A stretch of 28,271 bases of DNA from Streptomyces sp. Edi2 (lineage in GTDB: Bacteria; Actinomycetota; Actinomycetes; Streptomycetales; Streptomycetaceae), in contig NZ_JBEJGX010000006.1 of NCBI RefSeq assembly GCF_040253635.1, positions 1 to 28,271 on the forward strand. Reading direction: 5' to 3'. The notes beneath the pieces are model-generated. The model searched no databases, was not told where the DNA came from, and saw nothing but the letters and a program-made list of their open reading frames with translations. Within the stretch, counting starts at the first letter, position 1. The number at the start of each line of letters is the position of its first letter. Below, piece after piece: positions 1 to 28,271 of this stretch. A program made the translations under genes and the position numbers.

Positions 1-510
1 CACGCATTCGCTAAGGTTAAACGTAACTTGGTTTGTTCCCTGAACAGCACCTCCGTCGATCTCAGTTCTGATTTAGGCTCAGTTTTGTACCGGCAGCTGC
101 CCGGCCAGGTGGGCGCCCTCCTCCGCAGTGATACCTCGTTGGAGGTTGTAGTCGTACTGCAGCTGGTTAACGGGGCTGCTTGCCGGATAGACGTCCTCCC
201 TGTTGCGGCCGGCCGATGAGGACCGCCAAGAAGGCCGGGCCTGCCTGGCTCCGGTGGGCCACGAGACACAGATGGCGGTGAGTGTGAGTCCGCGGTCATG
301 GGGAAGTGGCTGGCTGGTGCGGCTGGCAACATGGTTCGCCTGTCGGGAACGGCCGCCGCGTGACACGCAACGTGACCAGCACCACTCAGAATTACTTATC
401 GGTACGGTCTCGGTGTCCATGTGGAACTGTGCGCAGAATTTACTCATTGCGACTCATGGTGCAGATGGCTATCTCTGCCCCTTTGTGGTGCATTGAATTC
501 GGGGGCGTGT
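1..510. other. Left-edge non-coding stretch, no gene recognised
   Basis: The first 90 bases are noticeably richer in A and T than the rest. A minus-strand reading frame ends at base 79 with a natural-looking tail (…GAHLAGQLPVQN), which could be the last codons of a lost gene, but its upstream part reads as random high-GC translation. Nothing else here resembles a known protein. The promoter of the nuclease gene that begins near 511 should lie in the right half, but I see no convincing -35/-10 pair. Confidence 0.3.
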
Positions 511-4408: not shown

Positions 4409-5029
4409 TCAGGCGCCGAGGCCGATGTGGGAGACGTAGGTGTAGGCGCCCCAGTCGCTGTCGAGTTCGGCGATGACGTCGTCCCAGAGTTCTTCGAGTT
4501 TGTCGACGTCGCCGGCGACCATGGCTTCGACGGCGTCGTCCCAGATGTAGCGGACCTGGAAGCGGCGGACGCGCAGGTTGTCGCGGCGGCGGGTGGGGGT
4601 GACGGCGTCCTGGTTGATGGGGTGGATTTCGATCTTGGTGCCCTGGCCGCCGTGGTTGAGGTGCTGCTGGAAGGCGTGGGGGTTGGCCATGACGTTGTGG
4701 GCGCGCAGGTTCCAGTAGGCGGTGTCGATGGCTTCGCGGTTGGCGGGCTTGGGGGTCTGCTTGCCGCCTGTCCACTTGCGGAGGGTGTGAGAGGTGGCAG
4801 TGATGCCGGCCTCGGCCAGTGCCCGGAGGCCGCCTCGGTGGGTGGTGAGGTATTTCATGCGGGCCATGAGGCCGCGGCGGGTGGTGACGGGGGACTTGAT
4901 GCCGCCCTCGACGATCATGCGTTCGAGGGCGTCTTCGAGGGCGCGGCCCAGGGCGATTTTGCCGTGGACGTTGCCGGGGTCGAGGTTGGCGCCGTACCTG
5001 CCGAAGTTCTTCCAACCGTCGGTGGACAT
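4409..5029 (-). CDS. Tpg-like telomere terminal protein (divergent)
   Basis: The protein is 206 residues. Streptomyces terminal proteins are about 180-260 residues; they bind covalently to the 5' ends of linear replicons and prime end-patching synthesis. The layout matches what I know of Tpg. A short N-terminal helix (ALGRALEDALERM, about 26-38) precedes a basic helix-turn-helix (about 52-105) with MARMKYLTTHRGGLRALA and then SHTLRKWTGGKQTPKP, equivalent to the RYL…GGTKAVA…RTVERY region of Tpg. The C-terminal half ends in an acidic helical stretch (DDAVEAMVAGDVDKLEELW). The start ATG at 5029 shares one base with the TAA of the upstream gene (TAATG), so translation is coupled. Order and coupling match the chromosomal tap-tpg operon. 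The protein diverges from canonical Tpg, and the priming residue cannot be assigned by eye. A plain HTH DNA-binding partner is the alternative. Confidence 0.62.
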   Translation of the reverse strand: MSTDGWKNFGRYGANLDPGNVHGKIALGRALEDALERMIVEGGIKSPVTTRRGLMARMKYLTTHRGGLRALAEAGITATSHTLRKWTGGKQTPKPANREAIDTAYWNLRAHNVMANPHAFQQHLNHGGQGTKIEIHPINQDAVTPTRRRDNLRVRRFQVRYIWDDAVEAMVAGDVDKLEELWDDVIAELDSDWGAYTYVSHIGLGA

Positions 5030-7449
5030 TAGCGGGGCGTCTTCCTGGAGCGGGGCAGGGTGTATTCGTCTTTGCTCTTGAGCTGTCCGGTGAGGCGGCC
5101 TTCTTCGAAGACGGTGCGCCAGTCGGTGTCTCCGGTGATGTGGAGTTCGTCGGTGCCGCGTACGCGGACGACGGTGAGGCCGTTTGTGTGGGCGCGGTGG
5201 GCTTTGAGCCAGAGGTTGGCGAAGGCCTGGCTGCGGATGATGTGCATCCAGTCGGGGCGGCGGATGTCGCGGTTGACGCTGGATTCGCCGATGGTGGAGA
5301 CGAATTTTGAGTACATGGCCTTGATGTATTCGAGGGTGACGTCGTCGCGGTTGTCGATGGCGGTGTGGCGGGCATCGGTGAGGACGCGGCGGAACTTCTC
5401 CAGGAGGCCTTCGGTGGCGCCGGAGGTCCAGGCTTCGGTGATGTGGGGGGCCTCGCACAGGCCGAGCTTGTGGCAGCGGATGAGGAGGCGGATGGTGGCA
5501 TCGTCCAGGAGGACGGGGCCTTCCTCATGGCGGTTGCCGATGGGGTCGGGGAGATCGGGGTGGTCCCAGGCGGGGCGGGCCGGGAGGCGATAGATGCCCG
5601 AGCGCTTGGGCTCGAAGCCGCCGTCGGCGTCGTAGTGGAGAGCGCCGATGGGCAGGTAGGTCTTGAAGGCGGAAAGGTAGGCGGCGTTGGTGTCCAGGGA
5701 AGTGACAGCCACAGGAGCTCCGCCGTCGCGGAGGCGGGCGGCGAGGGGGGTGTTCTCCCAGTTGTGGCGGCCCTCCCAGATGTCGTCCGCTCCGTCCTTG
5801 GTCTTCTTCCTCAAGAAGTCGAGGGTCTCGGGGTAAACGGTGTGCTCGTAATTGCCGCCGACCCGGGTCGCCTCGAAGAGCTCCATGCCGTTGGGGATCG
5901 CTTGCTTGACGAGGGTTTCCGTAGCCGCGTCGGTGTCGCCGTCGTGATCCTCCAGGGCGCGCTCGACTGCGGTGGTGATCATCTGAGTGAAGTGGCTGTA
6001 GTCCCGGCCGGCGTAGGTGGAGCTGCGGGGCGTTGTGGGGCGCGCGGAGACGGGGGCGAGGGTGGACTGGGGGGCCGGTTGGGAGGGCGCGGGTGAGCTG
6101 GAGGCCGGGTTGGGGGGCGGCGTGGGGTCAGCGGTGGGGCTGGTGTGGGGGGCGGGGTCGGTGAAGCGGGCATGGGGCAGGTCGGCGGTCAGGGCGAGGT
6201 CGGCGAGCGTGCCCAGGTCCCGCTCGGTGACGGTGAGGTGGGCCCGGGTCTCCTCGCGGCTGAGGAGGAGGGTGAGGTCGGCGTTCACCGTGGCCAGGAC
6301 GGCGGGGTCGTCGGTGTCCAGAGCGGCCAGGACTGGGATGTTGTGGGCGCGGGCGAGGTGTGCGAGGGCTTGCACGGCGTCTGCGATGGCCTGGTGGCCG
6401 GATAGGGGCAGGCGGGGGTCGTGGGTGGTCTGGAGGCGGTCGACGACCAGCAGCGCGAGGTCAGGGATGTCGGGAACGGTAGAAGCGATCGCGGCTGCAT
6501 CAAGGTCGCTGCCGTCGTCGATGAGCAGCGGCGCCTGGGTGAGCTGGTGGGCGGCGTCGGCGGCGGCCTGCTGTTCGTCGGGGGTGAGGGTGGCGGCGCG
6601 CAGGCGACGGTAGTCGACGGGGGCGAGGGCGGCGATCAGGCGGGCGGCGACGTCGGCGCGGGTCAGCCCGGAGGCGGCGTAGAGGACGGGGAGGTGGTGG
6701 GCGAGGGCAGCGGTGCGGGCCGCGGTAGCAGCAAGGAGGCTGGCTCCGGCACCAGGTTCACCGGCGATGAGGTAGAAGCGGCCGGCCTGGAGGCCGCCGA
6801 GGGCTTGATCGAGGGCCGTGATCCCCGTGGATAGGCCTGGGAGGCTGCCTGCGTCGGGCTCGTTGTCGGCGGTGGGGAGGGTGGCCAGGGCCTCGGCGAA
6901 AGGAGCCAGACGACGCGACGCAGTTGCGGGCGCACTGGTCTGTTGTGCCAGGGAGTGTTGGGGAGTGTGTGCGGTCGGCGACGCGGGAGCCTTGAGTTCT
7001 GTGGTGAAGGTGCTCTGGCCCGTGGGGGTAGCAGGCGACGCGGCAGTGGTGTCCGCGGCGTTGCGGGGCAGTTGCTTGCTTGGGATGCGTGCCGGGGTAG
7101 CGGCCGCTGCGGGCGTGTGGGCAGTGGTTTGCGGGATGAGGACGGCGACTGCGGTGGAGTGACGGCGCAGCACCTGTGGGTGGCCCTCGGCAGCATGCTG
7201 GATGAGGTCGCCCAGTTTCTTGCGGGCTTGGGCGGTCGGCCAGGACGGGGCGGTGGTCAGTTCACACCCGGCTGCCTCGGCGGCGGCGGGTGAGACCAGC
7301 AGTGCCCTGTGCTCTTGGCCCTCGCTTTTGCGTGCGAGCGGGATGGCCTGCCCCTCGCCTGCGGCTTTCACCAGCTGCGGCAGCATCCCGCGCGCCTCGT
7401 GCAGCGTCGACGGCACGGACGCAGCAGGCGGCGTGACCTCGTTCGACAC
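5029..7449 (-). CDS. Phd x2 / DnaB-RecA-like / Tap-like palm fusion protein
   Basis: The protein is 806 residues, starting at GTG 7449 with GGGAG seven bases upstream. Residues 14-60 and 70-106 look like two Phd/YefM-type repeats (SWPTAQARKKLGDLIQHAAE is the clearer one). A Pro/Ala/Thr linker follows. Residues about 200-425 resemble the DnaB C-terminal RecA fold: LSTGITALDQALGGLQAG, a Walker A position GEPGAGAS (230-237) with Ala replacing Lys, Walker B LLVVDRLQTT (333-342), and NADLTLLLSRE. After a Pro-rich linker (432-475), residues 480-806 resemble the C-terminal half of Streptomyces telomere-associated protein Tap. They carry a motif A-like LDTNAAY (585-591), a motif B-like YIKAMYSKFVSTIGES (708-723), RRPDW, and a motif C-like RGTDELHI (764-771). 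Tap is known to work with Tpg at replicon ends and has reported primase/polymerase-type activity. The Tpg-like gene directly downstream supports this role. Whether this protein is catalytic is inference. Confidence 0.65.
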   Translation of the reverse strand: MSNEVTPPAASVPSTLHEARGMLPQLVKAAGEGQAIPLARKSEGQEHRALLVSPAAAEAAGCELTTAPSWPTAQARKKLGDLIQHAAEGHPQVLRRHSTAVAVLIPQTTAHTPAAAATPARIPSKQLPRNAADTTAASPATPTGQSTFTTELKAPASPTAHTPQHSLAQQTSAPATASRRLAPFAEALATLPTADNEPDAGSLPGLSTGITALDQALGGLQAGRFYLIAGEPGAGASLLAATAARTAALAHHLPVLYAASGLTRADVAARLIAALAPVDYRRLRAATLTPDEQQAAADAAHQLTQAPLLIDDGSDLDAAAIASTVPDIPDLALLVVDRLQTTHDPRLPLSGHQAIADAVQALAHLARAHNIPVLAALDTDDPAVLATVNADLTLLLSREETRAHLTVTERDLGTLADLALTADLPHARFTDPAPHTSPTADPTPPPNPASSSPAPSQPAPQSTLAPVSARPTTPRSSTYAGRDYSHFTQMITTAVERALEDHDGDTDAATETLVKQAIPNGMELFEATRVGGNYEHTVYPETLDFLRKKTKDGADDIWEGRHNWENTPLAARLRDGGAPVAVTSLDTNAAYLSAFKTYLPIGALHYDADGGFEPKRSGIYRLPARPAWDHPDLPDPIGNRHEEGPVLLDDATIRLLIRCHKLGLCEAPHITEAWTSGATEGLLEKFRRVLTDARHTAIDNRDDVTLEYIKAMYSKFVSTIGESSVNRDIRRPDWMHIIRSQAFANLWLKAHRAHTNGLTVVRVRGTDELHITGDTDWRTVFEEGRLTGQLKSKDEYTLPRSRKTPR

Positions 7450-7484
7450 TTCAGCACTCCCAACTGCACTTCAGGCATGAGCTG

Positions 7485-7511
7485 CTGGTGGGGTGACACG
7501 CACTCCACCAG
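7485..7511 (-). promoter_or_regulatory. 11-bp hairpin/dyad in the tap-like leader
   Basis: CTGGTGGGGTG and CACTCCACCAG pair across a 5-base loop (10 exact pairs plus one G-T). The dyad lies 36-62 bases ahead of the GTG start of the 806-residue gene and just downstream of a possible start site. It could be an operator for the HTH partner or the Phd-like repeats, or a leader hairpin. Confidence 0.45.
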
Positions 7512-7524
7512 AAAACGTAACGTC

Positions 7525-7530
7525 ACCCTA
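7525..7530 (-). promoter_or_regulatory. Candidate -10 box for the tap-tpg-like operon
   Basis: Read on the minus strand this is TAGGGT, close to the Streptomyces TAGRRT -10 consensus, about 75 bases upstream of the GTG start. No clear TTGACA-type -35 lies 16-18 bases further up, so this is only a candidate. Confidence 0.25.
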
Positions 7531-7711
7531 GCAATACGGGAGCACGTGTCGGTACAAAAGGCGGAGGTCGGTTACAGAACTGGAGCACCGGGGCGTGCGA
7601 GCCGTCTGGGCATCCGCGTGAATGGCCTCAAAGCTGTGTTGGGTGGCATCGACCGGAATGTGGGAGGTGCGGGCTGGGAGGGCGTGTCAGCAGCAGCTGG
7701 TGAGCTGACTG

Positions 7712-16657: not shown

Positions 16658-18282
16658 GCTGCGCCTTCCTGCAAGGTGGCGGGGCGGGGTGCCTCGTTGT
16701 CGGGAGCGGCGGGGCCGGCGTGCGGGGTGAGGTGCAGCAGCGCGTGTGCGCAGACGTCTTCCCGCGTCGTGGTGCCCGCAACGGCGGCGAGGGCCACGGC
16801 GGAGGGGCGGCGGCCGGGCTGGTGGAACAGAGGGATCCGCCTGGGCAGGAGCACACGCCAGGTAGGTGCGTTCAGGGTGCCGACTCCGTTGCCGGTGTGG
16901 ATGAGGGTGCAGGCGAGCCCTTCGCTGGTGCCGGTGCGGCTTGGGCCCGTCGCGGCGGCTCGGGCGGCGGCCATGAGGGCGGCGAGCGCGACGCGGGCAG
17001 CAGCCTCGTCCAGGTGTTGTCCGGGAACTGAGGCCAAGACCGCGGCGACAGCGACTGCGTGCTCGGCTCGCCGACGTGATCGGGCTTCGGCCACTTGCGC
17101 TTTGACTGCTGTGTCGTCACGTGGTGTGGTGCCTCTGCCGCGCGGGCCGGACCGGCCGGTGGTGCGCAGGAGCGTCGGCACTGGCACCTGCGGTCCGCCG
17201 CGCCAGGACGGGTTGCGGCCGGCGTCGTCCTCGTGGGCCTGGCCGTAGAGCTTGCGCCAGGGGTGGTCGCCCGCCGCGGCCTGGAAGATCTGCACGCCGA
17301 TCTGCGGGGTCAGCACCGCCCGGGCAAGAGCCAGGGCGCGGGTACGGGTGGAGGCGGTGCCTGCTGAGGAGTGCAGTCGGCGCAGATTGGCGTGCATGCT
17401 CGGCAATGTCCGTACCAGGCGCAGCGAGAATCGCGCCGCGCGTCCGCTGCGGGCGTCGAACCAGGCAGACAGTCCCTCCCAGTCCTCCACACGGCCTCCG
17501 CGCGAGGCGCTGAGCGCACCGGCAGCGATGAGGTCGCGGGCTTGGGAGGCGTCGACGGCCGCCTGTGCCAGCTGGCCGAACCATGGCCGCAACACCGTCA
17601 GTGCCGCTGCCGCTCGCGCCGAGCCGGAATCGAGTTCGGCGGCGACGCGGGTGGCATAGTCGACCAGCAGGCCCTTGAGGTCGTTGGTGCGTTCCTCGTC
17701 CAGGTCGAACCGGTCGGCCAAGCTCATCAGCGCATCCTCGGCACCGACCAGGGCCGCGTCCAGGTCATCGTGACTGGTGAACACGGCGCTCACTGCATCG
17801 ACGCCTGCGGCCTCCAGATGACCGGCGGCCGGCTCCCTCGTGCCCAGCGACTCGGCGAGCTTCTCAAGGTGGGTCACGATGCGGCTGAGCGACACGATCG
17901 GGATCTCCCGCACGGTCGGCGTGCCGGCCAGGACCTGCCGGTAGAAGCGCTGCACGTGGCGGCCCGCAGGACTGGCGGTGTAGCGCCAGTTCCGTGCCAG
18001 GATCTCGGCATACCGCCGCGCCCGGCTGGTGTCCGACCGTACTGAGACCGCTCCCATGTCCTTCAGGGCATCCAAGCGTGTTTCGACCAGCCGCGCTTCC
18101 ATACCGAGCCGGGTGACCGACAGCGCTGCTGCGACTTCGGTAACTGTCATGTCGGTCACCGACCCCTCAAGCACATCCATGATCGCGATGTAGTCAGCAG
18201 ATTCCGGACGCACCAGATACCCCACGACCTGCCGGGCGTCGCCCACGCCATCAACCGCAGCACGGTCCGACTCTTCCGCCAC
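16654..18282 (-). CDS. jetA: Wadjet JetA-like kleisin subunit (TIGR02677/DUF2397 type)
   Basis: The protein is 542 residues and the first gene of the operon; the product is the kleisin-like subunit of the SMC complex. The N-terminus reads VVGYLVRPESADYIAIMDVL and continues into a winged-helix-like VTEVAAALSV…VETRLDALKDMGAVSV segment. A helical middle follows (SLSRIVTHLEKLAESLGTRE, VFTSHDDLDAALVGAEDALM), as in the family. The start is placed at GTG 18282: an AAGGGGG ribosome binding site lies just upstream, with GTG 18285 as the adjacent alternative. The frame is open to 18435, but codons before 18285 do not look like family sequence. It leads into jetB with a 4-base overlap. Confidence 0.75.
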   Translation of the reverse strand: MAEESDRAAVDGVGDARQVVGYLVRPESADYIAIMDVLEGSVTDMTVTEVAAALSVTRLGMEARLVETRLDALKDMGAVSVRSDTSRARRYAEILARNWRYTASPAGRHVQRFYRQVLAGTPTVREIPIVSLSRIVTHLEKLAESLGTREPAAGHLEAAGVDAVSAVFTSHDDLDAALVGAEDALMSLADRFDLDEERTNDLKGLLVDYATRVAAELDSGSARAAAALTVLRPWFGQLAQAAVDASQARDLIAAGALSASRGGRVEDWEGLSAWFDARSGRAARFSLRLVRTLPSMHANLRRLHSSAGTASTRTRALALARAVLTPQIGVQIFQAAAGDHPWRKLYGQAHEDDAGRNPSWRGGPQVPVPTLLRTTGRSGPRGRGTTPRDDTAVKAQVAEARSRRRAEHAVAVAAVLASVPGQHLDEAAARVALAALMAAARAAATGPSRTGTSEGLACTLIHTGNGVGTLNAPTWRVLLPRRIPLFHQPGRRPSAVALAAVAGTTTREDVCAHALLHLTPHAGPAAPDNEAPRPATLQEGAA

Positions 18283-18440
18283 CACTCCCCCTTCCGCGCG
18301 CCCCTGGCCCAGCCTGTTGTGGGCCTTGTTTTGGAAAGTAGATGCAGCCACTGACAACGCCGCCGAGAATCGGCAAATTCGAGAGTCTTTCCTGCACCCC
18401 ACATGACTCGAATCCACCACCGCAACCAGCCGCAAGTCGC

Positions 18441-18469
18441 AGACGACGAACCGATACTGCCCGTGTCAA
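18441..18469 (-). promoter_or_regulatory. Candidate promoter for the Wadjet operon
   Basis: A perfect TTGACA lies at 18469-18464 on the minus strand. Seventeen bases later is a poor -10 position (TCGTCT). It sits about 160 bases upstream of the jetA start. A small perfect dyad, GAGGCC-gca-GGCCTC, lies just behind it at 18487-18501. The weak -10 keeps confidence low. Confidence 0.25.
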
Positions 18470-18501
18470 CACCTCATTCCATGACCGAGGCCGCAGGCCT
18501 C

Positions 18502-19041
18502 AAAAGCTGGTTTGATCTGCAGCTTTGGGATCCCTGAGCAGACGTCTCGATCGCTGGCGAGGCCTTCCGAGGCACAATGAAACCGAGGCGGCGCACGCTG
18601 CACCCAGCGGGCGGCATTCGGCCAGATTGATGCCCGAAGCCGCAAGCACCGAATGCGCGGACCCCACCGCCGTCTCCCCACTCAAACAATTCGCCAATTC
18701 GTTCGATAATCGGGGTATCCAAGACCCACGACTAATCCAAGGACGGCGCAGGCCCTATTCAGCGTCAGAACGAAGCCTGCGGTGGCTGCCGAAGCGGCCA
18801 AGGCCCAGCTCCAGAAACAGCCTCAGAGCGGTGCCGCTGTTCCAAAAGCCGACCATGTTGACGTCGATCAAGCACAGGCTCGTCGTGCGGCGAAAGCGCG
18901 GGGCCGGGAAGCACCGGCCGTCGGTCGACGGCATGACCCGGAACTGCATACCGGCTCGTCGCAGCTGTCCGGATCGCGTTGTTCGCCGCTCCGGCGGCAG
19001 CGGGCGTTGTGCTAATGCTCTGGCAGTCCGTTGCCGACGGC
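18502..19041. other. Intergenic debris, no recognised gene
   Basis: This stretch is less GC-biased in parts and has several short overlapping frames on both strands, but none with a good start and recognisable product. A plus-strand frame near 18975-19010 encodes a short hydrophobic run (LFAAPAAAGVVLMLW) that could be a remnant membrane segment. I see no RNA gene or convincing mobile-element end. Confidence 0.3.
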
Positions 19042-19437
19042 TCACCGCGACAGTACGACGTGATGCCAGGGAGACGTCATGTCAAGGGAGTTGCAGGTCC
19101 TCCACTTCGACACCAACGAGGTGCGCCGGACCCCAGCGACCAGGTCGGGGTGGTCTCGGAACTGCTGCTCGCGTGCCCAATCGGCGAGGTCGGCTTTGTG
19201 AGCAGCCCGCACGGCGTCGGGGCTGATGCCGGTGAGGGTGGCGATGCCCATGTTGATGTCGTCGAGGCCGTGGTATCGGTTGGCGGGCGCGTAGATGCCA
19301 GCGGCGTCGGCGGCGTACTCACATCCGGCCGCGGCGAATTTCTCGAACAGCCATCGCCGGAAGGGTGTCCTGGGTCTCCCAGGCGGAGTCGTAGTTGTCG
19401 ACTCGGGGTCGTCGTAGCCGGGACCGATGATGGGCAT
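19042..19437 (-). CDS. Hypothetical 131-residue protein
   Basis: I do not recognise the family. The middle reads like real protein: RRWLFEKFAAAGCEYAADAA, IYAPANRYHGLDDINMGIAT, DAVRAAHKADLADWAREQQF. The first 25 residues are Pro/Thr-rich. ATG 19437 has only a weak purine-rich site upstream (GGAAATGAG). It lies 23 bases downstream of the GNAT remnant on the same strand, so it may be the last cistron of the damaged kinase-GNAT unit. No signal peptide or membrane segment is seen. Confidence 0.45.
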   Translation of the reverse strand: MPIIGPGYDDPESTTTTPPGRPRTPFRRWLFEKFAAAGCEYAADAAGIYAPANRYHGLDDINMGIATLTGISPDAVRAAHKADLADWAREQQFRDHPDLVAGVRRTSLVSKWRTCNSLDMTSPWHHVVLSR

Positions 19438-19460
19438 GAGGTCTCATTTCCCGTCGGTGA

Positions 19461-19968
19461 TCAGCAGTAATGGAGTGGAGCTCCGGGCAACGGCAGTGCA
19501 TACACCTGGTACGGCACGGCGGTTGCGTCGTCGGCGGGCCGGTCGGAAGTGCCGGTGCGGGTGAACCGGCTTTGGCCAGGACTCGGCCGGAGGCCGGATT
19601 GTCGGGGTGTGCATGGCCTCCCGGCGCTCCAGGCCGGCGGTGGCGATGGCGAAGGCGGTGACGTGCTTGACCGCTTCGGTGGCGTAGCCGTTGCCCCAGG
19701 TGTCCTCGCGGAGGATGTAGCTGAGGGTGCCCAGGGACGGGGCCCGTCGCCGCAGGGCGATCAGGCCGATCATCTCGTCGGTGGCGAGGATGCCCCAGCT
19801 CCACTGTGCGCGCGGTGTCTCGGCGGCTCTGGCGAGGGCTGTGCGGATCTTCTCGTGGGCCTGGTCGAGGGTAAGGGGCTTGCCGGTGGTGTGCCGGATG
19901 GAGGCGCCGCTGTAGATGCGGGTGAGAGCTGGTGCATCGTCGGGGCCCAGGGCGCGCAGGGTCACCAT
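19461..19968 (-). pseudogene. Frameshifted GNAT N-acetyltransferase
   Basis: GNAT proteins transfer an acetyl group from acetyl-CoA to an amine. From ATG 19968 the frame reads VTLRALGPDDAPALTRIYSG, then AQWSWGILATDEMIGLIALR and LSYILREDTWGNGYATEAVK (the WGxGYATEA acetyl-CoA binding loop) and ERREAMH. The sense then jumps frame near 19610 (HPDNPASGRVLAKAG) and again near 19560 (FTRTGTSDRP…VPYQVYALPL), ending at TGA 19461-19463. The C-terminal strand that completes the fold is therefore split by two shifts. The start overlaps the end of the kinase-like gene. Natural decay or sequence error cannot be separated from this text alone. Confidence 0.7.
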
Positions 19969-20735
19969 GAGGCAGTCAGCTCCTTCACGGTGGGGCGGTC
20001 GGCGGGGTCGGGGCCAGGCACGCGGTGATGGCGTCCTCGGGTTCGGGAACGGGCCGCGGCCGGACGTCGCGCAGCGCTGTGGTGGTGCCCTTGGCGATGG
20101 CGGCCGGCTTCTCCAGCCGGTCGGTGGTGTCGTCGTAGGCGACGCGGCGGTGGCCGGTCCAGCACCAGAACAGGGAGGCGCCCAGGCTCCAGATGCCGGC
20201 GGGCGGCTGGGCGGGAATGTGGGTGTCGGCGGGGGTGGAGAGGATCGCGGTGGCGACTCGGGGGCGGTGGTGCGGGTGAGGGCGCCCCGGTAGGGGACGC
20301 GGCGGTCGGCGGCGGGGCCGCAGGCGAGGGCGTAGTCGATGACGGCGGCGTGGCCGTCGTGGGTGACGAGGGTGTTGGTGGGCTGGACGTCGGCGTGGGC
20401 CCAGCCGGCGGCGTGCAGGCGGGCGAGGCGCTCGGTCCAGGTGCGTGCGATGCCCGCGAGCCAGGGGCGGACTGCGGCACGGTCTCCTTCGGGGCCGCGG
20501 GCGAGGGTGAGGGCCCGCCACAGGGGTACGCCGTCGATCCAGGTGACGGCCAGCCACCGGCCGCCCTCCCACGTTCCGGCGCTCACCCGGTAGTCGGGGC
20601 TGAGGGCGCCGGCGGCGGTGAGGCGAAGGAGGTGGTCGTCCTCCTGGGCCATCTCGGCGGCCTTGTCGCGGGCGCCGTCGCCGTCGGGGTCGTTGGCTTT
20701 CCACGCGACGGCTCCCTTGGGCCTTGGATTTTCCA
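19962..20735 (-). pseudogene. Truncated, frameshifted protein-kinase-like protein
   Basis: Kinase-fold signatures appear in order: AVAWK near the left end of the fragment (possible ATP-anchoring Lys), YRVSAGTWEGGRWLAVTWID, then HAAGWAHADVQPTNTLV (catalytic-loop-like HxDxxPxN) and AAVIDYALA (DFG-like position). The frame then shifts near 20280 to a piece reading PPAGIWSLGASLFWCWTGHR and near 20000 to PADRPTVKELTAS, ending at 19962 inside the GNAT start. The normal N-lobe upstream of AVAWK is missing. It resembles Streptomyces kinase-like genes paired with an acetyltransferase, but its substrate is unknown. The right boundary is approximate. Confidence 0.6.
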
Positions 20736-20921
20736 GGCCGGGAGCCGCGCCGATCGCTCAAAGGATCAGCGCAGCACAAGAGCGCCGGCACCTGTCGAAG
20801 TCCCGACCAACCAGTCGAAGACCGTCGGACCCTCGCCGGCACGCGCCGCGGCAAGATCTTTGCGGGACTGTCGGTCGGATGGTCGGCGACCGGAGCGAAT
20901 TGGTCTTCCCAGTGCGGGGGA

Positions 20922-21787
20922 TCAGCTGCTGAGGTCGAACACGCCCCACGCGGTGAACGGGTCGGCCCGGACGTAGATCCTGCTTCCTCTGCTGACAACC
21001 CGCCGGCGGCCGGGGGCGGCGCCCTCGGGCAGGGTGAGCAGGCCGACGTCCGTTGGCTCGACTGATGTTTCGGTGAGCTCTCCGCGGGCGAGTCGGTCCC
21101 GCTCCTCGCCGTAGCCGCCATGGAAGGCGACCTGCTCGCCGTGGACAGCCACCGCATGGGCGCCCCGTACGCGGTTCGCCCACACTCTCACGGGCCGGTC
21201 ACGGCGGTCGGGGCACATCTCGACGAGTGGGAAGCCGTGTACGGGCACGCCCAGGCGGCGGTGCCCGACACGTTCAGGGCGTAGCAGTCGAAGAGACCGG
21301 GGATGGGGGCGCCGTCTGACGTCCAGGCAAGCCGGCCCGTGGCGCTCCAGCGGCGGATTCCGGCCGGGTTCTCGTCGAAGTGCCCGACCCAGATATGGCC
21401 GGACTCGTCCACGAGCAGGTGCTCGATGGCGTCCCCGACGGAGAAGGACGAGGTCTCGCGGCCGAGCGCGTCAAAGACCTGGACCTGGTCCGCGTCCTCG
21501 TACCGGCGGGCGCGAGACGCAGCGACGACGAACCCGCCGTCGGGCAGGCGGTCCAGGTGCGGCCAGCGGGCCCGTACGGCGCTCAGCTCGGTGAGTTCGA
21601 CGTTGCCGCCCGGATCGACGGAAACGACCAGCGCGTTGAAGGGCAGGACATCGCCGCCGGGCTGCGGAGCGCGTTCGGCGAGCAGCCAGTGGGCGGCGCC
21701 GAAGACGTCGGCGGTACTGGTCAGGACGTGGCGGTCGTGGTGCGCTCGGGGCAGGTGGGCGTAGGGAACGAGGGCGGTCTTCTGCAC
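20922..21787 (-). pseudogene. Frameshifted hypothetical repeat protein (possible beta-propeller)
   Basis: GTG 21787 has a good AGGAGAG site seven bases upstream. The frame runs about 180 codons (VVSVDPGGNVELTELSAVRA, LPDGGFVVAASRARR, VQVFDALGRETSSFSVGDAI, HLLVDESGHIWVGHFDENPA). It then loses sense near 21245, and the protein continues in another frame (VHGFPLVEM, VRVWANRVRGAHAVAVHGEQ, PFTAWGVFDLSS) to a TGA at 20922. Repeated short strands with DG/DESG turns suggest a beta-propeller-like fold of about 288 residues. No catalytic function can be proposed. A single one-base change would restore the whole frame. Confidence 0.55.
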
Positions 21788-21874
21788 GGGCGGGCTCTCC
21801 TGGGTGGGCGGTCACGGCCATCGGGCACTGCGGCAGTCGGTGGCGCGCGAGCGGTGGAGAGCGGAGCAGGGCGC

Positions 21875-22861
21875 CTAGATGTACTGATCGGGGAGGTTGA
21901 TCAACCGTGAGAACGGGGGCTGGTTGCCGCAAGCGCTGTGCGGACGGTGCTGGTTGTACTGGTGCAGCCACGGTGGCAGAGCGTCTCGGCGTTGTTGCTC
22001 GCTGGTGTAGCAGCGGGCGTAGGCCCAGCCGTCGGCCATGGTGCGGTGGAAGCGTTCGACCTTGCCGTTGGTCTGCGGACGGTAAGGGCGCGTGTACTTC
22101 GGTGTGATCGAGAGGGTGTCGCACGTGTCGCGCCACAGGTAGGACCGGTAGGCGCCGCCGTTGTCGGAGAGAATCCTCTCGATGGTGACGCCGCGCTCGG
22201 CGAACCACTCCACCGCGCGATGCAGCACGCCGACTGCGGTCACGGCCGTCTCGTCATCGTGGACCTCGGTGTAGGCGACGCGGGAGTGGTCGTCGATGAC
22301 GGTGTGCACGAACGCATATCCGAGCTTCGGGCCGCCGTAGGCGTTGCGTGACTTGCCCGGTGTCGCGACGCGGTGCTTCTCGCCTTGGCGGCGACCGACG
22401 TACCGCCAACCGCCTCCATCGGGGATGTTCCCGAGCTTCTTCACATCCACGTGCACGAGCGATCCCGGGTGGTCGTGCACGTACCGGCGGACGGGTTCAC
22501 CTGTCGCTCGATCGACGTAGGCGAGTCGGTTCAGTCGGACCGATCGCAGGATTCGGTGCACTGTCGACGGGGCGATGTCGAGTCTCGCGGCGAGCTGGAC
22601 GGGCCCTTCTCGCAGGCGCAGTCGCAGGCTGACGCATCACTTCGTCACGTTCTTGGGTATTTTGGTCGGAGATCTCCGGGGTCGTGAGGATCGGTCCTGC
22701 ATGGACTCGCCTGCAAGGTAGCGATCGGCCCAGCGCTGTACGGTTGGCCAGGACACCTGGAATCGGGCCGCGACTTCGCTGGTCGGCCAGCCGTCGTCAA
22801 CGACGAGTCGAGCGACTTTCAGACGGTGGCGCGGGGTGAGGACGGCGTTCGGATGTGACAT
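21875..22861 (-). mobile_element. IS481-family transposase with an in-frame stop
   Basis: ATG 22861 begins SHPNAVLTPRHRLKVARLVV and a helix-turn-helix (WPTSEVAARFQVSWPTVQRW), typical of IS481-type DDE transposases. After NVTK a TGA (22637-22639) interrupts the frame. The same frame then continues with LRLRLREGPVQLAARL and the intact catalytic region: HVDVKKLG (first Asp), VIDDHSRVAYTEV, LSDNGGAYRS (second Asp) and QTNGKVERFHRT (Glu). It ends PPFSRLINLPDQYI. The total of 328 codons is the family length. The stop makes full-length protein unlikely, although a product starting at 22561 would retain the catalytic domain. I could not identify terminal inverted repeats or a target duplication by eye, so these coordinates are the transposase gene only. 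Confidence 0.85.
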
Positions 22862-22882
22862 GTTTGAGCTCCTGGACAGCCT

Positions 22883-22915
22883 GAAGGGCCGACCATCGGG
22901 TGCGGGCGGCCCTTC
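22883..22915 (-). terminator. Hairpin terminator after the VOC gene
   Basis: GAAGGGCCG (22883-22891) and CGGCCCTTC (22907-22915) are perfect complements around a 15-base loop, 29 bases past the VOC stop. There is no T tract. Confidence 0.55.
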
Positions 22916-22943
22916 GACAACGTGTGGGTAGAGGGCGTGAAGA

Positions 22944-23309
22944 TCAGTCCACCGGGGAGACCCGGATGAGGTTGCCGTCGGGGTCCGTGATGACGAACGT
23001 GCGACCGAAGACAGCGTCGTGTGGCTCCTCCGCGACATGGACTCCCTTCGAGACCCAGCTCGTGAAGATCTCGTCAATCCCGGTCGCTCCTCCTGGGACC
23101 ATCAGTCCGACTTCGCTCGTTCGAGGGGTGTTCGGGACCGCACGCTCGCTGTAGCCCGTCCACAGCGCGAACAGGACGCCGGGAGCAACCTCGAAAGCTA
23201 CGTAGTGGGGACTGATGAAGGTCGGTTCGATCTCGAACAGGTCGCTGTAGAAGGCGGTAGCGGTCTCGGCGTCGCGGACGCCGATCAGGAACAGGTTGGG
23301 TGCGGGCAT
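22944..23309 (-). CDS. VOC (glyoxalase/bleomycin-resistance) superfamily protein
   Basis: The protein is 121 residues. ATG 23309 has GAGGAG seven bases upstream. It shows the paired beta-alpha-beta-beta-beta layout of the vicinal oxygen chelate fold: PNLFLIGVRDAETATAFYSD, then YVAFEVAPGVLFALW, then EVGLMVPGGATGIDEIFTSW and GRTFVITDPDGNLIRV at the C-terminus (DPDGN is the family signature). The length fits a single-module VOC protein. Members bind metals or small toxic molecules; the substrate here is unknown. It is transcribed away from a WYL regulator with about 95 bases between the start codons, so that regulator probably controls it. Confidence 0.88.
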   Translation of the reverse strand: MPAPNLFLIGVRDAETATAFYSDLFEIEPTFISPHYVAFEVAPGVLFALWTGYSERAVPNTPRTSEVGLMVPGGATGIDEIFTSWVSKGVHVAEEPHDAVFGRTFVITDPDGNLIRVSPVD

Positions 23310-23366
23310 AGTGCGCTCCTCAGATCGTTGAATTCTCGGTACTGCTCCAGTTGACCGCCGCATCGC

Positions 23367-23379
23367 GACAGAACCTGTC
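23367..23379. promoter_or_regulatory. Dyad in the VOC/WYL divergent promoter region
   Basis: GACAG-aac-CTGTC is a perfect 5-bp inverted repeat in the middle of the 95-base divergent intergenic region, 26-38 bases ahead of the regulator ATG. It is a candidate operator. A dyad this short can occur by chance. Confidence 0.35.
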
Positions 23380-23404
23380 ACCTTTTCTGCAAAGGTTGGT
23401 CAGT

Positions 23405-24370
23405 ATGAAGGCTTCGAGGCTGTTGCATCTCTTGCTGCTCCTGCAGGCCCGTCAGCGCATCACCACCACCGAGCTCGCCGGACGTCTGGAAGTGTCTCGG
23501 CGGACCGTGCTGCGGGATGTCGAGGCGCTCTCGACAGCAGGTGTGCCTGTCTATGCCGAACGCGGGCGGAACGGCGGGATCGTCTTGCTCCCCAGTGCGC
23601 GGCTCAACGCATCGCATCTGGAACCATCAGAGCTGGAGGCACTCTCCGTAGCCGGTTTGGACAGCGCGCAACTTGAGCGTATGGGTCTGTCTGCGGTGTG
23701 GGAGTCGGCCGCGCGCAAGATCGCCGCTCGGCAGGCTGCAGCACCTGGATCGCCGAGCCTGCTGCAACTGGCGGACCTGGTGCTGGTAGACAGCACCGCG
23801 TGGTTTGCTGACTCAGAGGCAGGGGTCGACGTATCGGATCTGGCCTCGGCACTGCGACACCGCCGCCGGCTGCGAATCCAATACCGGCGCAGCGCCGAGA
23901 ATCAGGCCTCAACGCGGGTGGTCGACCCGTACGGGATCGTCGCGAAATCCGGTCGCTGGTATCTCATCGCCGATGACCAGGGGAACGGTCGGCTGTTCGC
24001 TCTGGAACGACTCTCGTCCTACGAACAACTCGACGCGCCAGCTGCTCTCCGACCAAGCGAAACCCTCCGCACCAGATGGGCCGCGTTGAAGGAACGCACA
24101 GAGGGGCAAGGTCGCGTGAGCGTGACCGTCCGCCTGCCAGAAAATGGACTCGACCTGGCGCGGCGCATCCTCGGCAACCGCATCCACGACGTCTCCGACG
24201 CGGAAAACGGCTGGTGCACCGTCGTCGTCCGCTACCCCGACATCGAGTCAGTGCGTCAGCTCCTCCAGTTCGGCGACCACATCGAGATACTCACCCCAGA
24301 GACAGCCCGCGAACGCATCAGTCAGCTCGCCAGAGACCTGGTTGAAAGGCACTCAACCCCGGCCTCGTGA
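23405..24370 (+). CDS. WYL-domain transcriptional regulator (YafY/DeoR-like)
   Basis: The protein is 321 residues. ATG 23405 follows AAAGG nine bases upstream and matches the usual family N-terminus; the frame is open to 23351 but without family sequence. The N-terminal winged helix-turn-helix reads MKASRLLHLLLLLQARQRIT, TTELAGRLEVSRRTVLRDVE and VYAERGRNGGIVLLP. The WYL domain is at about 155-225 (RIQYRRSAENQASTRVVDPY, SGRWYLIADDQGNGRLFALE). The C-terminal WCX-like part has ENGWCTVVVRYPDIESVRQL. WYL regulators sense ligands or nucleic acids. The divergent position suggests control of the VOC gene and of itself, which is inference. Confidence 0.9.
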   Translation: MKASRLLHLLLLLQARQRITTTELAGRLEVSRRTVLRDVEALSTAGVPVYAERGRNGGIVLLPSARLNASHLEPSELEALSVAGLDSAQLERMGLSAVWESAARKIAARQAAAPGSPSLLQLADLVLVDSTAWFADSEAGVDVSDLASALRHRRRLRIQYRRSAENQASTRVVDPYGIVAKSGRWYLIADDQGNGRLFALERLSSYEQLDAPAALRPSETLRTRWAALKERTEGQGRVSVTVRLPENGLDLARRILGNRIHDVSDAENGWCTVVVRYPDIESVRQLLQFGDHIEILTPETARERISQLARDLVERHSTPAS

Positions 24371-24392
24371 CTGCCGAGCGGAACGCCCTGCT

Positions 24393-24420
24393 CTCAATCA
24401 ACGTCTCCGGTCAGTACACC
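24393..24420 (+). repeat. Possible fragment of an IS481-type transposase 3' end
   Basis: The bases around ATCAACGTCTCCGGTCAG match the last codons of the IS481-type gene in this window (read from its coding strand) at 20 of 24 positions. The reading INVSGQYT resembles the INLPDQYI terminus. The match is short, so this is only a possible insertion scar. Confidence 0.3.
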
Positions 24421-24565
24421 GGCATGGCCCTTTCTGGTCGTCATGAGGTGATCAACGTCGACATCCGACCTCGTGACAAACCTTTTCGGCGCGCCACCCC
24501 AACCGAGACCACCTCCCTCTGGAGGGGACGTCGAGCTGAGCTCTCGATCTACCGGGCAGTCCCAA

Positions 24566-24609
24566 CTGCAGTGCTCAGTCACAGCGGTTACCGTGACTGA
24601 GCACTCCAG
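24566..24609. terminator. 17-bp near-perfect hairpin between the WYL gene and the next gene
   Basis: CTGCAGTGCTCAGTCAC (24566-24582) and GTGACTGAGCACTCCAG (24593-24609) pair at 16 of 17 positions around a 10-base loop. It lies about 200 bases past the WYL stop and about 50 bases ahead of the next start. It may terminate transcription or act as an operator or attenuator for the downstream gene. The rest of 24371-24659 holds no gene. Confidence 0.5.
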
Positions 24610-24659
24610 CCGGCCGGCGCAGGGCGAGGGGCGCGCGGGACTTACGGCAGAATCACGCT

Positions 24660-25157
24660 GTGACGTCCATGGGGCTCCTGGCCGAGCTGGAAGCCGGCAT
24701 GGCAGAGCTGTCCACACCGATGCGGGTGTACGTGGCCGCGGGACGCTTCACCGAGCCGGAAGCCGACCTGCCACAGTTGGCGGCCCGGATCCGCACACTG
24801 CTGGTCGCGATCACGACGGACGAGGCCTGGCGGCGCTTCCTACCCGGGTACGCCCCACCGTCCGTCCCTGAGATCTGCGCTGCTCTGGAACCGGTGGACA
24901 CGCACAGGGCCGCCCCGTTCCTGGCCCAGGTCGCGGCCGTCGACCTGCTCTGGCCGAGCCACCGGCACCTGCCCGCCGAGAGCGCCGAACCCGCGGCGGA
25001 CCGAGTGGTGTCCCTGCTCGGATCAAAGGCCAGCTGGTGGACCAACCACGACGCCGAATGCGGCGCAGTGAACGGGCTCACCCCTCTGTTCGACAGTCTG
25101 CTCGCAGGAACGGACGGTGAGCACTTCGCGCTGGCCCTGCAGATCGCCGACGACTGA
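24660..25157 (+). CDS. Hypothetical 165-residue protein
   Basis: I do not recognise this protein. It starts at GTG 24660 or ATG 24669; neither has a strong ribosome binding site. The sequence is helical and acidic (MGLLAELEAGMAELSTPMRV, LPQLAARIRTLLVAITTDEA, GYAPPSVPEICAALEPVDTH), then DHAECG-like and LFDSLLAGTDGEHFALALQI at the end. No membrane segment, signal peptide or catalytic motif is evident. Codon use looks like real coding sequence and the frame is uninterrupted. The 265 bases after it (25158-25423) hold nothing I can identify. Confidence 0.55.
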   Translation: MTSMGLLAELEAGMAELSTPMRVYVAAGRFTEPEADLPQLAARIRTLLVAITTDEAWRRFLPGYAPPSVPEICAALEPVDTHRAAPFLAQVAAVDLLWPSHRHLPAESAEPAADRVVSLLGSKASWWTNHDAECGAVNGLTPLFDSLLAGTDGEHFALALQIADD

Positions 25158-25423
25158 GCGCCCCATCTGGGCGGGCGCACGGCCAACCGTCAACAATGCC
25201 CGCATTCCTCCTCATCGACGCCGCAGCGCACTCAGCCCAGCTGGCGACTCGCCGCAGCCGTTCGCCTCACCGATCCCAATCCCTGCATCCGCCAAACGGG
25301 TCGGGTGGCCTGGTGATGAGCCGCGGTTCAGGCGTCGTCGGCTGCCTCGGCAAGAAGACCTGAGCCGTGTTCCGCACGCTGTTGACCGCGCTGGACACCG
25401 CGCTGGCGCGATCACTGTGCGGG

Positions 25424-25836
25424 CTAGTTGGTGCAGGTGTCGAGCATGGAGGTCAGCGCGGTCTTCTCGCTGTCGGTGGTGGTGAGTTTGCACACGGACT
25501 TCACATGGGTGCAGTCCTCGGCGTAGGTGCACCACAAGGCGTGCTTGGCCGGCTTCCAGTCGGCTGGGCCGCTGTCGCTCTTGGAGCTGTTGGAGGACTC
25601 GGAGGCGACGACGAGCTGGGGTCTTCGAGGTCGTTGCCGAAGGCTTCGCGCTGGTCCGTGGTCCAGGCGTCGGCGCCGGAGCGCCGGGCTTTGGGCGAGG
25701 GGACCATGTGGTCGATGGTGGCCTGGGCGACGTTGGTGACGGTGGCGTCGTCGTATACGGAGTACCACTTGCCACTGGCCAGCTGACGACACTTGTCGGA
25801 CTCGTCGACGACCTCCTTGCCGCCGCGGGCGGCGTC
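25424..25836 (-). pseudogene. Truncated, frameshifted HNH-family nuclease
   Basis: The readable order is ARGGKEVVDESDKCRQLASG, KWYSVYDDATVTNVAQATID, HMVPSPKARRSGADAWTTDQ, REAFGNDLEDP. A one-base loss near 25620 follows, then QLVVASESSNSSKSDSGPAD, WKPAKHALWCTYAEDCTHVK and SEKTALTSMLDTCTN with stop at 25424. This is the C-terminal half of secreted actinobacterial HNH nucleases (DUF1524/GmrSD-C-like). In these, DHMVPLAE and N-D…N-S…K-x-DxxP-type residues form the active site. Here the motif reads DHMVPSPK, so the Leu-Ala-Glu stretch is also altered. The N-terminal secretion signal and first half are missing. Confidence 0.6.
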
Positions 25837-25899
25837 AGCCCCCTGGGTCCACCCGCAGCGCCGGGCACATCATCCTTGGGCCGGTGACCGGTCCCCTTC

Positions 25900-26345
25900 T
25901 GCCGCAGTCGGTGCGGAGCCCGGCTCATGGCGTTCGTGTCTGTCCGAGGCCAGGTCTGAGGTGCGGCGGTGAGCTTGTCGAGGACGTGCGGGAGCAGGGC
26001 GTTGGCGTAGGCGCGGTGTGGCAGGTCGTGGATGGTGATGCGGCTCGAATGGGTGGAGAGCGGACGGTGGCGTCGTCGGCGGCTTCGCGGACATTGGCCA
26101 GGCGTTGAACGGAGGCCCTGTCCGTCTTCCCCAGGACGTCCTTCGACCACGTGGTCGAAGGACCGGTGCCCGAAGGCCGGTGGGATATGGCCGAGGATCG
26201 CGCGCAGCAGCATGTGGCAGGCGTAGGTGCGCTGTGCGGTGTAGTTGGCGTTGAGCTCGCGGGCGAGGCGGGCAGCTTGTCCAGCTGCCCGGTGGTGCGG
26301 GCGGCTTCGAGGCCGCCGATCAGGCCTTCGTCGATGTAGGGCCGA
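25900..26345 (-). pseudogene. Remnant of a conserved helical hypothetical protein
   Basis: Pieces in alternating frames read RPYIDEGLIGGLEAARTTGQ, LARELNANYTAQRTYACHML, LRAILGHIPPAFGHRSFDHV, KTDRASVQRLANVREAADDA and ITIHDLPHRAYANALLPHVL. This order resembles a widespread bacterial hypothetical family with an LRAILDHIPP core and a late aDd-H segment, whose function I do not know. At least three frame changes interrupt it. It lies just upstream of the HNH remnant on the same strand. The boundaries are approximate. Confidence 0.45.
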
Positions 26346-26368
26346 AGGCGGGCTCGGCAGCCGGGCGG

Positions 26369-26400
26369 CGGTCCGCCCCTTCTTACGGAGGGACGGACCG
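26369..26400 (-). terminator. Hairpin after the small secreted protein gene
   Basis: CGGTCCGCCCC (26369-26379) pairs with GGGACGGACCG (26390-26400), with one G-U pair on the minus transcript and a 10-base loop. It begins 15 bases past the stop of the 84-residue gene. Confidence 0.5.
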
Positions 26401-26415
26401 TTTGAAGTACCTGGA

Positions 26416-26670
26416 TCAGCGCAGCAGCAGGTACAGGTGGAAACTCCTGGACGAGGTCCAGTCGCAGCGCCACCGTATGACGTTGGTGTGGTTGTCCTTC
26501 CACCACTGACCGCTGCGCTCGCACGCGGCGCTCTTGTTGAATGTCTCTTTGGTGTCGTACCAGGACGAAGAGACCGTTGACGGAGCAGCAGTCGCCGTCG
26601 CTGGCACGGCGACAGCGGCAGTAGCAGTAGCACCCAGAACAGCCGCCGCGACGGCCAAACGCATTCTCAT
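26416..26670 (-). CDS. Small secreted protein (84 residues)
   Basis: ATG 26670 has AAGGGGAG about seven bases upstream, a strong site. Residues 1-29 form a Sec signal peptide: basic start MRMR, a hydrophobic Ala/Val core, and an Ala-x-Ala site near residue 29 (ATATAAP). The mature part of about 55 residues has two cysteines (C50 and C69, possible disulphide) and many aromatic residues (SSWYDTKETFNKSAACERSG, WWKDNHTN, WRCDW, FHLYLLLR). Its role is unknown; small secreted Streptomyces proteins of this kind are usually annotated as hypothetical. It is divergent from the HTH-ricin gene, with about 500 bases between them. A hairpin follows it. Confidence 0.7.
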   Translation of the reverse strand: MRMRLAVAAAVLGATATAAVAVPATATAAPSTVSSSWYDTKETFNKSAACERSGQWWKDNHTNVIRWRCDWTSSRSFHLYLLLR

Positions 26671-26781
26671 AGGTGGACTCCCCTTGCAGTGAGGGACGTG
26701 GGACGGTTACCCGTGCTCGGGATTCCCGTCGGGCCGGATGTTGCGAGCTTGCTCCCTCGGTCTGGGGATGTCAGCACACAA

Positions 26782-26823
26782 CCTGTCCGGGACATGTTCG
26801 GAACAGGTGCCGGACATGTCCGG
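26782..26823. promoter_or_regulatory. Composite operator-like dyads, copy 1
   Basis: CCTGTCCGG (26782-26790) is followed four bases later by the perfect dyad TGTTC-g-GAACA (26795-26805), and then by a 14-bp perfect palindrome CCGGACATGTCCGG (26810-26823). The GACATGT core occurs twice, 22 bases apart (about two helical turns). It lies in the divergent intergenic region between 26671 and 27173, which holds no other gene. Confidence 0.5.
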
Positions 26824-27125
26824 GCTGATCAGCCGGGCAAGTCGGACTGTTGTCCGCGTTCACTGTCGACGACCGGCGCGTCGGCACAGTCCCCACCGCT
26901 CCTGTTCTTCACCATCCGTACGCCGGTCCAGTGGTCACCCGTCTTGCGGTTGACACCGACGTCTCGGCACGCGGCGAGAGGGCGCAAACCAGAGAATCTT
27001 CCCTCAGGCGTCGAAGACCGCCCCTGCGGTCCCAGTACGGGCAACCCACCCTCCCCGCCCCGATTTGCGATCCCGCGCCCCGAACAGCTCGATTTGCTCT
27101 TGTGTGTCCAGCTCACGCTTGCGAG

Positions 27126-27145
27126 CCTGTCCGGTGTTCCGAACA
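27126..27145. promoter_or_regulatory. Composite operator-like dyad, copy 2
   Basis: CCTGTCCGG is followed directly by TGTTC-c-GAACA, the same two elements as in copy 1, ending 28 bases before the ATG of the HTH-ricin gene. Recurrence of both parts together argues for a protein binding site, most simply an autoregulatory one. Confidence 0.5.
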
Positions 27146-27173
27146 CGGGGGAAAGCGGAGGGAGTGGGCGGAC

Positions 27174-28199: not shown

Positions 28200-28271
28200 C
28201 CCAACCGCACCAACCCCACCACAACGCCACAGCGCCACAGCGCCACAGGCACCACAAAACAGCCAAAAACA
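28200..28271. other. Right-edge C/A-rich stretch with short tandem repeat
   Basis: CGCCACAG is repeated in tandem (GCGCCACA units near 28222-28250) in an otherwise C/A-rich non-coding tail after the last stop codon. No terminator hairpin was seen before the window ends. Confidence 0.3.

Follow-up and report, generated by a model that had tools for sequence, protein, structure and literature searches.

What do two coupled genes close to the end of a Streptomyces replicon do, and do they represent the archetypal tap-tpg operon or a lineage of their own? The window, the whole stretch of 28,271 nucleotides from Streptomyces sp. Edi2 that was analyzed, carries both genes on its minus strand. The initial annotation had described a distinct tap-tpg-like end-replication operon in which Phd- and DnaB-like modules replace the helix-turn-helix (HTH) of archetypal Tap. 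This description held, as did the coupling of two open reading frames of 806 and 206 amino acids. We consider it very probable that the pair serves to patch the ends of a linear Streptomyces chromosome and represents a Tap/Tpg lineage distinct from the archetype. The operon has the following features:

4409..5029, minus strand: Tpg-like gene, 206 aa, candidate terminal (primer) protein; its start overlaps the Tap-like stop (TAATG)
5029..7449, minus strand: Tap-like gene, 806 aa; in order, Phd-like region, DnaB-like pseudo-ATPase, linker, predicted protein-primed family-B polymerase domain
7132..7242, minus strand: Phd/YefM-like region, residues 70-106 (Pfam and TIGR01552), with a weaker second copy at about residues 11-60
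6325..6837, minus strand: DnaB-like RecA-fold domain, residues 205-375 (DnaB_C match, E 1.2e-24)
6739-6762, minus strand: Walker A of the DnaB-like domain, GEPGAGAS, without Lys
6430-6447, minus strand: Walker B of the DnaB-like domain, VVDRLQ, retained
5032..6012, minus strand: exonuclease-less family-B polymerase domain in the predicted model, residues 480-806
5677..5700, minus strand: motif A, SLDTNAAY, residues 584-591; Asp586 and Asn588 invariant in an alignment of 44
5296..5331, minus strand: motif B, EYIKAMYSKFVS, residues 707-718; Lys710, Tyr713 and Lys715 invariant in the same alignment
5137..5160, minus strand: motif C, RGTDELHI, residues 764-771; GTDEL invariant in the same alignment

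Both genes are conserved far more than chance predicts. Homology at E<=1e-3 was found for the C-terminal part of the 806-aa protein in 1870 of 7998 scored candidates and for the 206-aa protein in 109 of 628. Furthermore, the Tap-like and Tpg-like genes lie next to each other in relatives across the annotated records examined.

Where archetypal Tap carries HTH_3, the 806-aa protein shows Phd-like and DnaB-like regions. The Phd repeats proposed earlier were reduced to one region, residues 70-106, which matches Phd/YefM at E 1.3e-5, below the Pfam cut-off (25.3 versus 29.8 bits), while TIGR01552 clears its own cut-off (22.5 versus 20.8 bits); the second repeat is a weak likeness by eye. The DnaB-like domain was recovered as proposed, and with it a RecA fold of the protein's own, although in a degenerate form that has lost the Walker A lysine. 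This lysine is replaced by Ser, Ala or Gly in all 89 DnaB-bearing homologs among the 120 homologs listed. The domain is thus a degenerate pseudo-ATPase in the 89 homologs checked and, for that reason, probably does not act as a motor; the loss of the lysine led us to reject an active DnaB helicase domain. The Phd/DnaB fusion is commonplace in the family, not rare.

The palm-like motifs A, B and C proposed for the C-terminal region proved to be conserved in an alignment of 44 sequences (A3), made up of the window and 43 of 80 homologous loci; 51 loci were tried, of which four without a usable frame and four near-duplicates were dropped. Motif C, previously given as DTD, is corrected to GTD. The first residue of this motif is usually Asp in family B polymerases, and here it is Gly. 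The catalytic aspartates, Asp586 in motif A and Asp767 in motif C, are invariant in all 44 sequences, and we presume from the motifs that they correspond to the phi29 catalytic residues. Alignments were used in place of a motif regular expression, which was too narrow for use over the homologs.

The proposed polymerase palm was likewise upheld, as a structure search with the predicted model matched a family-B palm and fingers fold, with a resemblance to phage polymerases. More specifically, the matched phi29 range begins at residue 170-171 in four of the five phi29 rows and at residue 123 in the fifth. A 3'-5' exonuclease domain is absent, the remainder of the protein being Phd- and DnaB-like. 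By sequence alone, neither Pfam on 46 aligned rows (A1) nor a PDB profile search returned a polymerase. Residues 480-806 are thus predicted, by the model, to be a phi29-like, protein-primed family-B polymerase domain.

A fold of this kind could also persist as a structural relic, in which case the pair would be an end-binding and recruitment complex without catalysis of its own, and a host Y-family polymerase would prime. The GTD of motif C and the already dead DnaB-like domain would fit such a complex, as would the statement in the introduction of PMC4513846 that DinB1 or DinB2 is needed for Streptomyces end patching. However, whereas the Walker A lysine has been lost, Asp586, Asp767 and Lys710 do not vary across the alignment of 44, and the abstract of that paper reports synthesis of up to 13 nt in vitro by archetypal Tap with Tpg alone. 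We judge the non-catalytic complex to be unlikely and favor an active polymerase, reasoning by analogy with archetypal Tap/Tpg for the activity and from prediction for the fold.

For the 206-aa partner, the AlphaFold2 model reached a pLDDT of 90.7. The likeness to terminal proteins was not borne out by structure, since a fold search with the model gave nothing in the PDB at E<=0.001. Small HTH regulators are among the weaker hits, of which the best has E 1.5 and none exceeds a probability of 0.38; phi29 terminal protein is absent among the 50 PDB matches listed. Likeness to archetypal Tpg is confined to the HTH (BLASTP 5e-4 over 42 aa; hhalign E 6.3e-4, probability 28%). As a counterpart of Thr/Ser-114 and the acidic residue of archetypal Tpg, no conserved Thr/Ser was seen among 14 sequences in the likely equivalent region, which hhalign left unaligned. 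Hydroxyl-bearing positions of the 206-aa protein that proved invariant among the sequences compared are Ser46, Tyr60, Tyr105, Tyr196 and Tyr198.

The surroundings of the operon place it close to one tip of a linear replicon:

1..52, plus strand: probable Nanopore native-barcode adapter remnant on the contig end; near-identical letters occur at both ends of contig C4 and one end of C5
53..4408, no strand: subtelomeric stretch; window position 53 matches base 425 of S. natalensis contig L032, counted from its telomeric end
17579..28271, no strand: terminal inverted repeat that recurs at each end of chromosome contig C3 (left end 99.1%; right end 98.3%, starting at 19030)

The linear replicon assumed earlier was confirmed as a chromosome end. 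Because the right part of the window repeats both ends of the chromosome contig, a circular plasmid and an unrelated 28-kb linear plasmid were ruled out as its source. The 50-odd bases common to the ends of contigs C4, C5 and C6 were dropped as a shared telomere because they read as a Nanopore barcode flank, which we take window positions 1..52 to be. Judged against the S. natalensis contig, the window's own telomere is absent from the assembly, with about 424 bp missing. Gabija- and Wadjet-like genes adjoin the pair.

The telomeres of relatives lie at the extreme ends of their records or contigs and show hairpin covariation, and Sg2247-like terminal hairpins are present at the ends of close relatives. 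The new telomere class proposed for this operon stood in part: the telomere of the relatives has diverged, but it is a branch of the Sg2247-type layout and not wholly new. Like the Sg2247-type telomeres of pSGZL, S. rimosus and S. albidoflavus J1074 (PMC8743542), it has a GCGCGC start, a hairpin, a GACGC core and a CTAC-loop hairpin, while the hairpin sequences differ and a separate sub-type belongs to the DnaB-fused branch. A loose core match (two mismatches) also occurred at apparently unrelated ends (L009, L055, L062, L085, L111 and others), and therefore exact and BLAST matches were counted for the closest loci. An intact core at the contig end was not seen in 7 of these 17 loci (L032-L048). 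The core was not found at the S. cyaneochromogenes chromosome ends (L033, L041) or in L039, L042, L044 and L046; L038 begins within the core, and in L047 foreign, adapter-like letters precede the telomere. The core scan of loci gave no match at the pRL1 end (L112), and no Sg2247 match was found in 6 of 31 close carriers. Among the loci scanned, the archetypal telomere query matched only two archetypal control records. Close homologs of the pSGZL Tpg-like protein occur on 25 of 35 Sg2247-type plasmid records, the other 10 having no close Tpg-like gene among the matches listed.

In relatives the operon is also found close to plasmid ends, while some carriers have it far from record ends, for example at 37 kb in H6, 80 kb in H7 and 432 of 635 kb in H17. 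This distribution, the frequency of relatives on linear plasmids, the resemblance to phage polymerases and the adjoining Gabija- and Wadjet-like genes would suit a protein-primed replication module of plasmid or phage origin that sits in the terminal repeat and is not used for the ends of this chromosome. We hold this to be highly improbable, as the pair lies near telomeres of one matching type in many relatives and archetypal Tpg was not found in the source genome at E<=1e-3, an empty result that proves little.

Under the favored end-patching reading, replication from an internal origin would leave a 3' overhang at each end that folds into hairpins, as is established for archetypal telomeres. 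The N-terminal Phd-like region, together with the ATPase-deficient DnaB-like domain, may recognize or grip the folded telomere in place of the archetypal Tap HTH. Through Asp586 and Asp767, the phi29-like domain would then attach the first nucleotide to a hydroxyl group on the 206-aa partner before extending a short primer. This nucleotide is probably dGMP, because the most complete ends read GCGCGC. Host polymerases would complete the gap, with the 206-aa protein remaining on the 5' end. An HTH branch of the same family may likewise serve Sg2247-type telomeres, as suggested by their co-occurrence.

Direct comparison of the 806-aa protein with archetypal Tap gives a weak link (hhalign E 2.3e-4, probability 44%) and nothing significant by BLASTP (E 0.46). 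A bridge protein on pSGZL combines an archetypal-type HTH (54% over 76 aa) with a C-terminus like that of the 806-aa protein (52% over 327 aa). We lean toward the view that linear chromosomes captured a single superfamily of protein-primed family-B polymerases without an exonuclease, to which the Streptomyces end-patching polymerases, archetypal Tap included, belong. Their front modules (HTH, Phd with an inactive DnaB, or the long N-terminal part of the plasmid C4 protein, L006:12545-16330) would be exchangeable around a retained polymerase core, each paired with a telomere type and a primer protein of its own. If true, this would contradict published statements that a polymerase motif is missing from these proteins and that Streptomyces lacks a family-B polymerase. 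It would also provide the missing proteins of Sg2247-type telomeres, whose identity is called elusive in PMC8743542. Fold prediction and telomere co-occurrence offer direct, testable answers, including for these telomere proteins, and indicate that the polymerases have kept their core while exchanging the front module.

Among other known systems, phi29 DNA polymerase has an exonuclease domain, whereas the Tap-like polymerase domain lacks one and carries GTD in motif C. In place of phi29 terminal protein there is an HTH primer protein without a significant solved-structure match, and the presumed role is end patching only. As described in PMC8743542 (section 13), the candidate telomere proteins of pRL2 are similar, with a Tap-and-helicase-like protein beside a Tpg-like one. 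Tac/Tpc of SCP1, likened by description, presumably does the same job, and polymerase activity is reported for it in PMC4513846. Archetypal Tap/Tpg (L031:1778-4558; homologs named 'telomere-associated protein Tap') shares the order tap then tpg in the same direction, an HTH in both Tpg and the 206-aa protein, and, by profile comparison, a similar C-terminal motif order. It differs in its HTH front, as against the Phd-like and pseudo-DnaB front here, in a Tpg of about 185 aa versus 206 aa, and in its telomere, which is of another type than that of the pair's relatives.

The two minus-strand genes under study form a real, diverged tap-tpg operon at the chromosome end, laid out as follows.

5029-7449, minus strand: Tap-like gene, ORF of 806 aa
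4409-5029, minus strand: Tpg-like gene, ORF of 206 aa, sharing a TAATG overlap with the 806-aa gene

In the N-terminal portion of the 806-aa protein, residues 70-106 resemble Phd/YefM, passing the cut-off of TIGR01552 and falling below that of Pfam. Of the Phd repeats proposed in the initial annotation, the second can be made out only weakly. Residues 205-375 are DnaB_C-like (E 1.2e-24), and a DnaB-like part was recognized by pattern in 89 of the 120 listed homologs. All 89 of these have the Walker A lysine replaced by Ser, Ala or Gly, and 87 retain the Walker B pattern. The DnaB-like part is a conserved pseudo-ATPase. The C-terminal part gave no meaningful match in a Pfam scan and is predicted to adopt a family-B polymerase fold.

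For comparison, we used the archetypal Tap locus L031, whose homologs are named telomere-associated protein Tap. Direct BLASTP of the 806-aa protein against this Tap gave no match (E 0.46). The protein of pSGZL bridges the two, with its N-terminal HTH sharing 54% identity over 76 aa with archetypal Tap and its C-terminus sharing 52% identity over 327 aa with the 806-aa protein. Profile comparison of the C-terminus of the window family with archetypal Tap reached E 2.3e-4 at a probability of just 44%. The 206-aa protein matches archetypal Tpg in the HTH (BLASTP 5e-4; hhalign E 6.3e-4, probability 28%). The nucleotide acceptor of archetypal Tpg is given as Thr-114 (PMC3572947). No conserved Thr/Ser counterpart was found in 14 aligned Tpg-like sequences, in a region that is not confidently alignable; the invariant hydroxyl residues are Ser46, Tyr60, Tyr105, Tyr196 and Tyr198. 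The AlphaFold2 model of the 206-aa protein is confident (pLDDT 90.7, pTM 0.81) and has no match among solved structures at E<=0.001, so its fold argues neither for nor against a phi29-like terminal protein. The pair would act by protein priming, probably with dGMP as the first nucleotide; the front modules of the Tap-like protein would have a role of their own.

The window is the entire contig C6 of the Edi2 genome. Its positions 17579-28271 correspond to bases 1-10700 of the 9,116,766-base chromosome contig C3 (99.1% identity), and positions 19030-28271 correspond, inverted, to the opposite C3 end (98.3% identity). Because the right part repeats both C3 ends, the simplest reading of C6 is as the outer portion of the chromosome's terminal inverted repeat, at one end or both. 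Bases 1-52 resemble the ends of contig C4 and the start of contig C5, and we take them to be Nanopore native-barcode flank. From position 53 onward, the window parallels a Streptomyces natalensis contig (L032), with aligned blocks at 92.8-94.4% and insertions in L032. Since position 53 matches L032 base 425, counted from the telomeric end, the expected telomere would lie about 4.8 kb from the pair. The chromosome's own telomere lies beyond the sequenced bases and is probably served by this pair. The 206-aa protein has one match in the genome, and archetypal Tpg has none at E<=1e-3, an empty answer that alone shows nothing.

Several other features were found along the window. Between the operon and the telomeric side (421-3357) there are Gabija-like pieces, with GajA spread over three frames and GajB confined to a single frame, which may reflect either decay or long-read errors. 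A Wadjet type II operon occupies 9703-18435, near the linear chromosome end, with JetA2, JetB2, JetC2 and JetD2 all matching PADLOC models; Wadjet attacks circular plasmids. At the right end (26850-28199), a protein with HTH_31 and a ricin-type lectin domain falls in the stretch repeated at both C3 ends.

Telomeres could be examined in relatives. With the NBC_01216 plasmid end as query, four PLSDB records were retrieved, all four carrying a DnaB-fused Tap. The same telomere stands at the contig end in 10 of the 17 closest genome loci (L032-L048) and was not seen there in the other 7; in 9 of the 10, the exact core GACGCGCCGTC lies within the last 40 bases. In L047, a public draft contig, the telomere is present behind foreign, adapter-like letters. 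Such adapters at contig ends, including the adapter-looking bases 1-52 of the window, may mark the ends of linear molecules. A looser core occupies the same place in 8 of 63 more distant loci (L059, L066, L068, L075, L078, L091, L092, L107), and loose matches occur at unrelated ends too. In order, the layout has GCGCGC, a hairpin, GACGCGC and a second hairpin carrying a CTAC loop, and is the same as that of the Sg2247-type pSGZL end. Across 16 aligned ends, which were picked for showing the core and from which the structure itself was read, 95.9% of cells are paired, and both sides have changed in 8 of the 13 pairs. None of 500 shuffles reached the observed pairing, two-sided change or covariation score; the number of further pair types was unremarkable (206/500), and shifted structures lowered pairing to 28-41%.

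Six telomere classes have been reported, and the end-patching proteins for Sg2247 are described as not known (PMC8743542). The pSGZL telomere was found in 35 PLSDB records. The Tpg-like protein of pSGZL matches 152 records, 60 of them listed, 31 of these at >=60% identity; these 31 close carriers include 25 of the 35 records with the telomere. Archetypal-telomere records number 96, of which 25 are listed, and no overlap exists between these 25 and the 60 listed Tpg-like matches. Fisher's test gives p 4e-9 for the co-occurrence, on listed rows only and with records that are not independent. Ten of the 35 telomere records have no close Tpg-like gene among the matches listed, 6 of the 31 close carriers have no pSGZL telomere match, and two Sg2247 records also hold archetypal Tpg.

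By tblastn, the 806-aa and 206-aa proteins match 148 and 151 PLSDB records (60 listed for each), and host labels among the matches listed are Streptomyces, Kitasatospora, Embleya or Streptantibioticus only. In all six records examined, DnaB-bearing relatives lie about 11 kb or less from the record end and adjoin a Tpg-like gene. The pair occurs at both ends in the four records with both ends examined; in the remaining two, a Tpg-like locus lies close to either end. The records of pKP058 and pSGZL are labelled circular, yet have telomere-like sequence at their ends, and other carriers, among them H6, H7 and H17, have the pair farther inside. An additional AAA domain is present in three relatives that are 1601-2060 aa long, S. 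althioticus encodes the DnaB and C-terminal parts as two overlapping ORFs, and a second branch (pSGZL) has a short HTH front in place of the DnaB-type front. With the pSGZL C-terminus as query, the family was detected in 26 of 61 Streptomyces genomes, in G011, G024 and G059 by weak matches only.

Other end types occur in this strain as well. Contig C4, 22 kb long, has its own terminal repeats and a third tap-tpg-like pair.

L006:12545-16998 (contig C4): gene for a 1261-aa protein, then gene for a 222-aa HTH protein

The 1261-aa protein ends with the same palm motif order (DGNKAY, RRPDWGHAIR, KTDEL) and matches the window family by hhalign (probability 96%, E 5.7e-9), suggesting that the polymerase core has been combined with more than one kind of front part. 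The right end of C2 (L018; 297 kb) and the left end of C5 (L008; 19.5 kb) share yet another end type, rich in palindromes, at 88.6% over 114 bases.

Neither a polymerase fold in Tap nor proteins for Sg2247 telomeres are named in the titles and abstract openings listed by searches of the open-licence PMC library, and on this scope priority is uncertain. Tap and Tac are described as acting as polymerases without any polymerase motif (PMC4513846). A Tap- and helicase-like protein of pRL2, described second-hand (PMC8743542), may be an earlier sighting of the same kind.
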